Positions 128 to 2,348 of a stretch of DNA of 21,977 nt are shown here, piece after piece. The notes beneath the pieces are model-generated. The model was not told where the DNA came from. It saw only the letters and a list, made by a program, of their open reading frames with translations, and did not search any database. The position numbers and the translations under genes are program-made. Numbering within the stretch: position 1 is the stretch's first letter; each line of letters begins with the position of its first letter. Source of the DNA: a virus. The stretch is taken from positions 1 to 21,977 of the IMG/VR virus record IMGVR_UViG_3300025769_000958; one strand, given 5' to 3'.

Positions 128-264
128 GTTCACGTTTTGTTCCAATTGTACAATTTTGTTCACGTTTTGTTCTCGGTCTCCTTTTGTTCACGTTTTGTTC
201 TTTTGGTCCTCCTTTGTTCCCCTTTTGTTCTCAACCTTGGACAAACCAGGAACAAAACGAGAAC
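128..264. promoter_or_regulatory. Array of five alphaproteobacterial LexA (SOS) boxes
   Basis: Five sites fit GTTC-N7-GTTC exactly. They are 128-142, 158-172 and 186-200 (all GTTCACGTTTTGTTC), 216-230 (GTTCCCCTTTTGTTC), and 250-264 on the opposite strand (GAACAAAACGAGAAC, which reads GTTCTCGTTTTGTTC on the minus strand). Starts of the four direct copies are 30, 28 and 30 bp apart, close to three helical turns, which would put them on one face of the DNA. GTTC-N7-GTTC is the known LexA operator of Alphaproteobacteria such as Rhodobacter, Caulobacter and rhizobia. The motif matches are seen directly; LexA binding is inferred. The array stands 73 bp before the -35 of the promoter at 337, so it could repress that promoter, a divergent promoter to the left, or both. 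Confidence 0.7.
175..234 (+). repeat. Diverged 30-bp tandem duplication inside the LexA-box array
   Basis: Positions 175-204 and 205-234 align as two 30-bp units. Each reads GGTC, seven bases, GTTC, seven bases, GTTC, so each holds a degenerate half-site followed by a complete box. The three half-sites are spaced by 11 bp. The array therefore appears to have grown by tandem duplication of a LexA-box unit, with mismatches since then. Confidence 0.55.
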
Positions 265-336: not shown

Positions 337-365
337 TTGACACAATTGTAAATCTATAGTATAAT
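337..365 (+). promoter_or_regulatory. Consensus sigma-70 promoter driving the structural operon
   Basis: TTGACA (337-342) and TATAAT (360-365) are separated by exactly 17 bp, a full match to the bacterial housekeeping promoter consensus. Transcription would begin near 372. The -35 lies inside TGACACAATTGT (338-349), a 12-bp string also present at 6-17 in the upstream repeat array, so a protein that binds that array could also bind over the -35. A promoter this strong without regulation would be always on, so repression is likely. A 7-bp inverted repeat (ACCCCCC at 268-274, GGGGGGT at 316-322) lies just upstream. Confidence 0.85.
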
Positions 366-371
366 AACATT

Positions 372-509
372 ATGAAGTATATTCCTGGATACCTTGGTGG
401 CACACCTGTAATAGTGCCTACATTACGAGAACAAATCGTAAACAAACTGAGAAAAACCATATGCCGAAAACAAGAAAGTTTGCCAGCTACGAAGACCCAA
501 AACCCTTAG
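372..509 (+). CDS. Possible 45-residue leader protein, perhaps leaderless
   Basis: An ATG at 372 sits at the transcription start predicted from the -10 element at 360-365. It opens a 45-codon frame beginning MKYIPGYLGGTPVIVPTLR and ending at TAG 507-509. Its end overlaps the first 49 nt of the small terminase gene in another frame. There is no Shine-Dalgarno sequence, so it would need leaderless translation. I recognise no family. The N-terminal half reads like plausible protein, but the basic, Gln-rich tail is the overlap with terS and may be chance. It could be a leader peptide, a small early protein or an unused frame. Confidence 0.3.
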   Translation: MKYIPGYLGGTPVIVPTLREQIVNKLRKTICRKQESLPATKTQNP

Positions 510-922
510 ACAAAGAAATGACCTCTAAGGAATATGAGTTTGTCGTCCAGTTAGTAGACAAGCACCTAGAGCCAGAGCAAGCGTTCCATGCAGCTGGGTA
601 CAAAGCTGAAGGCTCTCATGCAGGGCATAGGTCCAAACGGCTACAGCGGCACCTTTGGCTCCACATTGAAAAACGCATTAAGGAAAAAGTAGGTGAGACT
701 GCAACACTTGCCCTGTCTGTCCTGGAAAGCCTAATGCGAGAAGCTGATTCTGAAAATGTTAAACTAAACGCTGCCAGGGATATCCTATCGAGGGCTGGGT
801 ACGATGCTGTACACAAACAGGAAACAGTTGTTAAGGAGATTTCTGAGCTTACAGACGATGAGCTAGACGAGCAAATCCAGCGCCTTTCTGAAAACGTGGT
901 GCCTTTGCAACGTGGCAAGTAA
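461..922 (+). CDS. Terminase small subunit (TerS)
   Basis: A 153-residue protein with the size, charge and layout of phage small terminase subunits, which recognise the packaging site and hand concatemeric DNA to the large subunit. Residues about 20-50 hold a short helical domain (KEYEFVVQLVDKH, EQAFHAAGY) like the DNA-binding part of TerS. Residues about 85-115 (ALSVLESLMREADSE, KLNAARDILSRAGYD) match the helical oligomerisation region, where an A-R-D-I-L-x-R-A-G motif recurs in the family. The C-terminus is acidic and helical (ELTDDELDEQIQRL). The start is ATG 461 after a weak GAGAA-type binding site. Its last codons overlap the large-subunit gene by 11 nt, and that adjacency is the strongest support for the call. 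Confidence 0.82.
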   Translation: MPKTRKFASYEDPKPLDKEMTSKEYEFVVQLVDKHLEPEQAFHAAGYKAEGSHAGHRSKRLQRHLWLHIEKRIKEKVGETATLALSVLESLMREADSENVKLNAARDILSRAGYDAVHKQETVVKEISELTDDELDEQIQRLSENVVPLQRGK

Positions 923-2348
923 AGAAGAAATTTTAAAGCTGCTCCAGGAAAAGCAACGCCGGTTCGAGACAAGGCGTATTGAGCATTACGATCCTTACGA
1001 TTACCAAACTAGGTTTCATTTGGAAAGTAAAGACTGCGCCCAAAGAATTTTAATGGCTGCTAACAGAGTAGGAAAAACCTACTGCGGAGCAGCTGAAACA
1101 TCCTACCACCTAACAGGCAGCTACCCGGAGTGGTGGGAAGGTCGTAGATTTAACAAGCCTATTAGGGCATGGGCAGCGGGCGAATCAAACGACACTACAA
1201 GGGACATTATTCAAAAAGAACTATTTGGGAACCCACAAGACCCCTTGAAAAAAGGGACGGGGGCAGTACCCCTGGACAATATTGTAGAAACCGTTCGTAA
1301 ACCAGGAGTGCCGAATGCTTTTTCTAGCGTTTTGGTCAGACACAGGAGTGGTGGAAACTCCCAGATTAGTTTTAAGGCATATGAGCAAGGGTTTGAAAAG
1401 TTTATGGGCGAGGCTATTGATGTTGTCTGGCTTGATGAGGAACCTAAGCAGGAAATATTTTCCCAATGTATAACCAGGACCGCAGATACAAATGGTATAG
1501 TCTACATGACATTTACCCCAGAACGTGGGATGACATCAGTAGTAAGCAGTTTTATGAACGATCTAAAATCTGGGCAGAGCTTGATAACAGCAACTTGGGA
1601 CGATGTAGAACACCTGGACGAAAAGACAAAAGAACAACTTTTATCAGTTTATAGCCCTGCTGAAAGGGACATGCGTTCCAGGGGAATACCTGTATTTGGC
1701 TCAGGATTGGTATTTCCTGTATCTGAAGACGATGTCGTTTGTGAAGATTTTGAGATACCGGATTATTATCCAAAGTTGGCCGCTATTGATTTTGGATATG
1801 ACCACCCTACAGCAGTTTCTTGGGCAGCGTATGATCCAGATGATGATATTATCTATATCTACGATGAACACCGGAGAAGCAAAGAAACACCACTGACTCA
1901 CGCAGCTGTGTTAAACTCAAGAACACCGGGAATACCAGTAGCGTTTCCCCATGATGGGTTACAGCATGACAAAGGGTCCGGAATACAGTTAGCACAACAA
2001 TACAGAGACCTTGGCGTATATATGCTACCTGATCACTTTAGCAATCCCCCTACGGAGGGCAAATTAAATGGTAACAACTCTATTGAAGCGGGCCTTAGCA
2101 TCATGCTGCAACGCTTTGAAACTGGTCGCTTGCAAATTTTTATGTCTTGTGTTGAAACCCTTGAGGAAATGCGTCTCTACCATCGAAAAAATGGACGAGT
2201 GGTGCCGATTAAAGACGATCTTATAAGCGCAATGAGATACGCTTCCCTTTCCATAGAGAGGTTTGGAGAGCAAATGAAGAACAAAACGCACTACAGGAAA
2301 TATGGGTTTGAAAAAGAAATCAAGTACTCCAGTGTAGGGATCGTATAA
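912..2348 (+). CDS. Terminase large subunit (TerL), packaging ATPase-nuclease
   Basis: The motor that pumps DNA into the procapsid and cuts the concatemer. Its 478 residues show the two-domain plan. The ATPase has a deviant Walker A AANRVGKT at 49-56, Walker B VVWLDEEP at 171-178 (catalytic Glu after Asp) and the coupling motif TFTPERG at 200-206. An RNase H-like nuclease follows, with its first metal-binding Asp in AAIDFGYDHPTA (D293), an acidic pair near DEHRR (318-322) and a late acidic motif IKDDLISAMRYA (D435/D436). It begins with GTG at 912 inside the end of terS, giving an 11-nt overlap and implying coupled translation. All expected motifs are present and the length is normal for a podovirus TerL. 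Confidence 0.95.
   Translation: MASKEEILKLLQEKQRRFETRRIEHYDPYDYQTRFHLESKDCAQRILMAANRVGKTYCGAAETSYHLTGSYPEWWEGRRFNKPIRAWAAGESNDTTRDIIQKELFGNPQDPLKKGTGAVPLDNIVETVRKPGVPNAFSSVLVRHRSGGNSQISFKAYEQGFEKFMGEAIDVVWLDEEPKQEIFSQCITRTADTNGIVYMTFTPERGMTSVVSSFMNDLKSGQSLITATWDDVEHLDEKTKEQLLSVYSPAERDMRSRGIPVFGSGLVFPVSEDDVVCEDFEIPDYYPKLAAIDFGYDHPTAVSWAAYDPDDDIIYIYDEHRRSKETPLTHAAVLNSRTPGIPVAFPHDGLQHDKGSGIQLAQQYRDLGVYMLPDHFSNPPTEGKLNGNNSIEAGLSIMLQRFETGRLQIFMSCVETLEEMRLYHRKNGRVVPIKDDLISAMRYASLSIERFGEQMKNKTHYRKYGFEKEIKYSSVGIV

Follow-up and report, generated by a model that had tools for sequence, protein, structure and literature searches.

An uncultured virus, a phage of marine type, carries in the gap before its terminase genes an array of five GTTC-N7-GTTC sites that is real and far above chance. 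The array belongs to the early side of the genome and behaves as an exchangeable module. The window analysed here is the 21,977-base record of this virus, which is a fragment and not a whole genome. Its relatives form a large group of uncultured, apparently integrase-less podoviruses, about half of which have the array. GTTC-N7-GTTC is the LexA box of Alphaproteobacteria (PMC3323433, PMC9578287), and all five sites match the published box exactly. We tentatively read the array as a cluster of sites for a host regulator with the LexA of an alphaproteobacterium as the leading candidate, a reading that we rate at somewhat less than an even chance. No other regulator with this specificity and geometry is known in Alphaproteobacteria.

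The preliminary description had reported five exact sites at 128-264, and all five are present at the positions and on the strands that it gave, three of them identical (Table 1). The whole window has six matches to GTTC-N7-GTTC against 0.60 expected by shuffling, and none of 100 shuffles gave six. When six sites were placed at random, five fell inside 400 bp in 0 of 5,000 placements. The 400-bp site maximum exceeds random placement in the window and likewise in G003, G005, G772, G773, G774, G775, G778 and G781. The description had also put the direct copies about three helical turns apart, but the site spacings of 30, 28 and 30 bp amount to 2.7-2.9 turns and relatives have 34, 28 and other values, which rules out helical phasing of whole sites. 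The conserved period is the 11-bp step between GTTC half-sites: 227 pairs on the same strand have this spacing and 9 do in a coding control, and at 22 bp the counts are 66 and 0. Relatives often have a plus-strand run followed by an inverted minus-strand run; the layout in L098 is GTTC-N7-GTTC-N7-GTTC-N8-GAAC-N7-GAAC-N7-GAAC.

Table 1 Features at the left end of the window.
Feature	Position	Strand	Remarks
CAACA/TGTCAC(AC) repeat block	1-120	none	Left of the array; in array-bearing and array-less relatives
Site 1, GTTCACGTTTTGTTC	128-142	+	Exact GTTC-N7-GTTC
Site 2, GTTCACGTTTTGTTC	158-172	+	Exact GTTC-N7-GTTC; identical to Sites 1 and 3
Site 3, GTTCACGTTTTGTTC	186-200	+	Exact GTTC-N7-GTTC
Site 4, GTTCCCCTTTTGTTC	216-230	+	Exact GTTC-N7-GTTC
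Site 5, inverted, GTTCTCGTTTTGTTC	250-264	-	Exact GTTC-N7-GTTC
C-run/G-run element, GACCCCCCCA ... TTCATTCCGGGGGGTATTTTGAAAA	267-334	none	Between array and promoter
Sigma-70 promoter TTGACA-N17-TATAAT	337-365	+	12/12 matches; conserved in relatives
Small ORF, 45 aa	372-509	+	Between promoter and terS; overlaps terS start; related sequence in relatives
terS, terminase small subunit	461-922	+	First large gene of late operon
terL, terminase large subunit	912-2348	+	Late operon

Longer relatives place the array in a gap of about 1 kb between divergent early (replication) and late (terminase-structural) operons. The suggestion of a divergent promoter region is borne out by G010 and G011, relatives in which a leftward early operon lies across the gap. 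On the late side, the 45-aa ORF is followed by genes for TerS, TerL, portal, scaffold and major head protein. The array had been proposed to control expression of these genes or a divergent promoter; it does precede terS and a perfect promoter, but approximately 73 bp separate its end from the -35 box downstream, and no strong promoter overlapping the array was recognised. Because of this, the direction of any effect on transcription is something that we can only infer. The repeat block to the left has a weak 10-11-bp periodicity. The C-run/G-run element is strongly conserved and occurs in nearly all family members. Sinorhizobium phage phiM5 has a direct terminal repeat with a similar end, and the element may be a genome end or a terminase cut region. 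The gap upstream of terS in L038 holds several Fur-box-like copies, GAATCATTCTCA, which suggests a possible use of further host regulators in this gap.

For the distribution within the family, 140 relatives were fetched in two scans, and 86 of them had enough upstream DNA for the array to be counted. The array sought in related phages was indeed found: at least four half-sites are present in 43 of the 86, two or three in 17, and none or almost none in 26. Members without the array retain the repeat block, the C/G element and the promoter, and no gammaproteobacterial LexA box (CTGT-N8-ACAG) was seen as a replacement in the regions of array-less relatives that were examined. L010, which has the array, and L094, which has none, amount to a natural experiment. 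Their TerS proteins are identical, their terS-terL stretches agree at 98.8% of nucleotides over 1.8 kb and their promoters are alike, but the sequence left of the G-run is swapped and the array is gone in L094. Hence, the array is not needed by that TerS. The same pair displays a clean recombination joint in the C-run/G-run element, with the early side exchanged against a nearly identical late module.

No full array was present in any isolate checked whose host is named. It is absent from Baldr, HTVC106P, Vibrio 1.262.O, HTVC023P, HTVC027P, CRP-902, ppBeUSDA76-2, phiM5 and nine further isolates, and from the uncultured psg01, DSL-LC04 and MW202462. BLAST searches against phages with the window region and then with an array sequence as query returned nothing useful. 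A TerL search of 385 alphaproteobacterial genomes gave distant relatives only, with no array at the ten loci returned.

Outside the family, a quadruple 11-bp pattern matches in 72 viral contigs. Intergenic matches have the consensus of the window, GTTC-[ACT]C[GC][TG]TTT-GTTC, in which spacer positions 5-7 are partly imposed by the search pattern and positions 1-4 are not. A terminase is recognisable in 29 contigs, spanning several unrelated terminase types, and the match lies upstream of it in 27 and within 2 kb in 20. G772, G773, G774 and G781 have unrelated terminases, yet their primase-helicase, DNA polymerase and other replication genes are common to the family of the window; G775 and G778 carry arrays without this shared replisome. 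In the uncultured Sieqvirus S42C7, the gap that follows terL contains two boxes. The array is therefore found in phages that are not closely related, a distribution that does not separate independent gain from module transfer. That one inner consensus recurs in unrelated phages is better explained by a host protein than by TerS or a factor encoded by the phage.

Some of the other matches to the quadruple pattern fall within initiator-like genes, and their inner consensus is not that of the window. Replication-initiator-like genes that contain tandem 11-bp GAAC repeats occur at L163, L236, L474, L475, L476, L479, L480, L491 and L492, and these repeats are probably origin iterons. In L177 and L339, 11-bp GTTC arrays occupy the 3' end of a regulator-like gene of Lactobacillus-type phages, with no alphaproteobacterial context. 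Large GTTC 11-bp arrays on an Oligoflexia MAG contig (L276) adjoin a ParA-like gene and overlap an open frame, and are possibly a plasmid centromere or origin. Matches in Bacteroidota are microsatellite-like with identical spacers.

As a chromosomal reference we collected 18 lexA-promoter and 15 recA-promoter boxes. The array unit is asymmetric in the way of recA boxes: its first half-site is preceded by a T and its second by a run of Ts. Its favoured spacer is AC[GC]TTTT, compared with TA[CG]TTT[AG] in lexA boxes, and recA boxes differ from it at positions 1-2. The window spacers fall at the 95th-99th percentile of a recA-box matrix. Against LexA, the first two spacer positions depart from those of chromosomal boxes, and across 385 alphaproteobacterial genomes the exact array variant shows no excess over the control (5 against 11). 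Runs of at least three half-sites are unusual for LexA and rare on chromosomes. In Alphaproteobacteria, three-half-site 11-bp arrays were found at recA (L303) and at an imuA-like gene (L403), the latter directly after TTGACA and beside a gene whose ImuA match is below the curated cut-off. Triple arrays occur in 2 of 385 alphaproteobacterial and 3 of 369 gammaproteobacterial genomes, counts in which one genome of each set was the search centre and was chosen for having such an array. Given this rarity, chromosome counts alone cannot name the binder. LexA as the controller, as proposed in the preliminary description, is supported in part: the published box, the recA-like flanks and the triples at recA and the imuA-like gene argue for it, and the inner consensus is not that of chromosomal boxes.

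A conserved three-half-site GTTC box was also seen upstream of a small ORF in Rhizobiales (L277, L280, L290, L301, L315, L355 and others). It sits between dnaE-side and lolCD-side genes in Mesorhizobium, Aminobacter and Agrobacterium and is a candidate SOS promoter.

A putative alphaproteobacterial host would agree with the DNA polymerase, for which 22 of the best 25 matches are from Pelagibacter or Roseobacter phages; TerL has its relatives in Vibrio and Pelagibacter phages. Host recA and lexA rise in SAR11 infected by HTVC027P (PMC12753301), which makes LexA cleavage during infection plausible. The early genes scanned in the near-complete relative G005 encode a T7-like primase-helicase, a family A DNA polymerase, a ribonucleotide reductase, a Cas4-type exonuclease, a GIY-YIG nuclease, Hsp20, a 2OG-Fe(II) oxygenase and a pyrimidine-dimer-glycosylase-like protein, together with a ThyX-like protein recognised by eye. 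Among the G005 proteins scanned, nothing was recognised as an integrase, a repressor or the product of any other lysogeny gene. This makes a classic SOS-induced prophage unlikely, and the earlier idea of damage-triggered prophage induction is not supported. The idea of a phage-coded LexA mimic fares no better, given that no LexA-like gene was recognised in that protein set either.

Two other explanations are serious rivals. The array could consist of replication-origin iterons, in which a winged-helix initiator would bind the 11-bp GAACAAA ladder and load the phage primase-helicase. We consider this unlikely, but it has several points in its favour: the array moves with the early/replication side in L010/L094, the family's replication genes accompany it in G772, G773, G774 and G781 despite their unrelated terminases, and other phages have 11-bp GAAC arrays inside initiator-like genes, as in lambda O. 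The half-site GTGAACA, which we take to resemble the P4 type I iteron GGTGAACA, is counted on the same side. The likeness to the initiator genes of L163, L476, L236 and L480 and to lambda O/ori-type iterons extends to tandem 11-bp repeats with a GAACAAA core. However, those in-gene repeats have another inner consensus, whereas the array of the window is intergenic, and no initiator-like winged-helix protein was recognised among the G005 proteins scanned, with small ORFs remaining. Moreover, G008 is a family member with homologous replication genes and no array, and arrays also stand beside other replication genes (G775, G778). The second serious rival, which we judge distinctly unlikely, is another conserved host regulator, for example a response regulator of the OmpR/PhoB type. 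It would have to share a GTTC-N7-GTTC specificity for which no alternative to LexA is known in Alphaproteobacteria, and the unit behaves as an asymmetric pair, like LexA boxes, and not as identical half-sites. Proteins of the OmpR/PhoB type do bind head-to-tail 10-11-bp direct repeats, which would explain runs of at least three half-sites, and such a regulator is consistent with the constant step of the tandem 11-bp runs and with a spacer consensus unlike that of chromosomal LexA boxes. CtrA arrays also share the N7 geometry, with TTAA as the half-site (PMC9437464).

Operators of an unrecognised phage-encoded regulator are quite improbable. Every genome has small early ORFs without assignment that could encode one, but no protein was found that occurs in every array-bearing phage and goes together with the array. 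A conserved 67-aa early protein was rejected as the binder, being missing in the array-bearing L005, L087 and G005 and present in the array-less L094. A packaging (pac or cos) site bound by TerS is very improbable, even though the array lies a short way upstream of terS, the ends of several long relatives fall close to the array region and the neighbouring C-run/G-run element resembles the phiM5 terminal repeat end. The L010/L094 pair, identical in TerS and different in the array, speaks against a TerS packaging site; about a third to half of the family lacks the array and keeps the C/G element, and the same consensus stands beside unrelated terminases, so that this explanation is largely refuted.

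The closest known parallel to a host-regulator array is Brevundimonas phage Delta, in which 12 CtrA sites lie in a divergent gap beside the terminase end and for which CtrA binding and regulation have been shown; 'lytic deferment' was proposed for such CtrA-site arrays (PMC9437464). The two arrays share clustered direct-repeat N7 sites that match a host regulator, a gap of about 1 kb, divergent modules and the terminase end. As with CtrA arrays, sites are gained and lost between relatives and occur in several lineages, perhaps independently. The half-sites differ, TTAA for CtrA and GTTC here, and for the present array binding and regulation are predictions. Likewise, the alphaproteobacterial LexA operators of recA, lexA and imuA have GTTC-N7-GTTC, the T/T-run flanks and an occasional three-half-site version, but they consist of one or two sites overlapping a promoter, whereas the window has five sites well upstream of one, and their spacers start with T.N and not with [AC]C[GC]. 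GIL01 and CTX are LexA-controlled temperate phages or elements (cited in PMC9437464, PMC3323433), and the window would resemble them as a phage genome with predicted sites of the host-LexA type. In GIL01 and CTX, however, the sites form a lysogeny switch jointly with phage regulators, and no lysogeny genes were recognised among the proteins scanned in G005.

If LexA is the binder, host LexA dimers would occupy the GTTC-N7-GTTC sites along the 11-bp ladder and their inverted partner, and the filled array would be a nucleoprotein patch that delays or tunes the flanking early and late operons. Single-stranded DNA would then arise as the phage replicates or host DNA is broken down, RecA would trigger LexA self-cleavage and the patch would fall away. 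The lytic programme of a seemingly non-lysogenic phage would in this way be tied to the damage state of its host, much as in CtrA 'lytic deferment'; 'non-lysogenic' refers here to the near-complete relatives that were read. That many unrelated, mostly uncultured phages carry exchangeable host-LexA operator arrays beside terminase, with the SOS repressor as an infection timer and not a prophage switch, is a broader claim that we hold to be possible rather than probable.

Marine Alphaproteobacteria have very abundant phages, and next to nothing is known about how the non-lysogenic ones sense the state of their host. A regulatory cassette that can be swapped and that recurs in unrelated phages with one consensus offers a handle on such sensing, and its sequence could help to assign uncultured phages to their hosts. 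Even with a binder other than LexA, the array indicates that many phages make use of some conserved protein. If the LexA reading is true, it would extend the idea of 'lytic deferment' from CtrA to a second host regulator.
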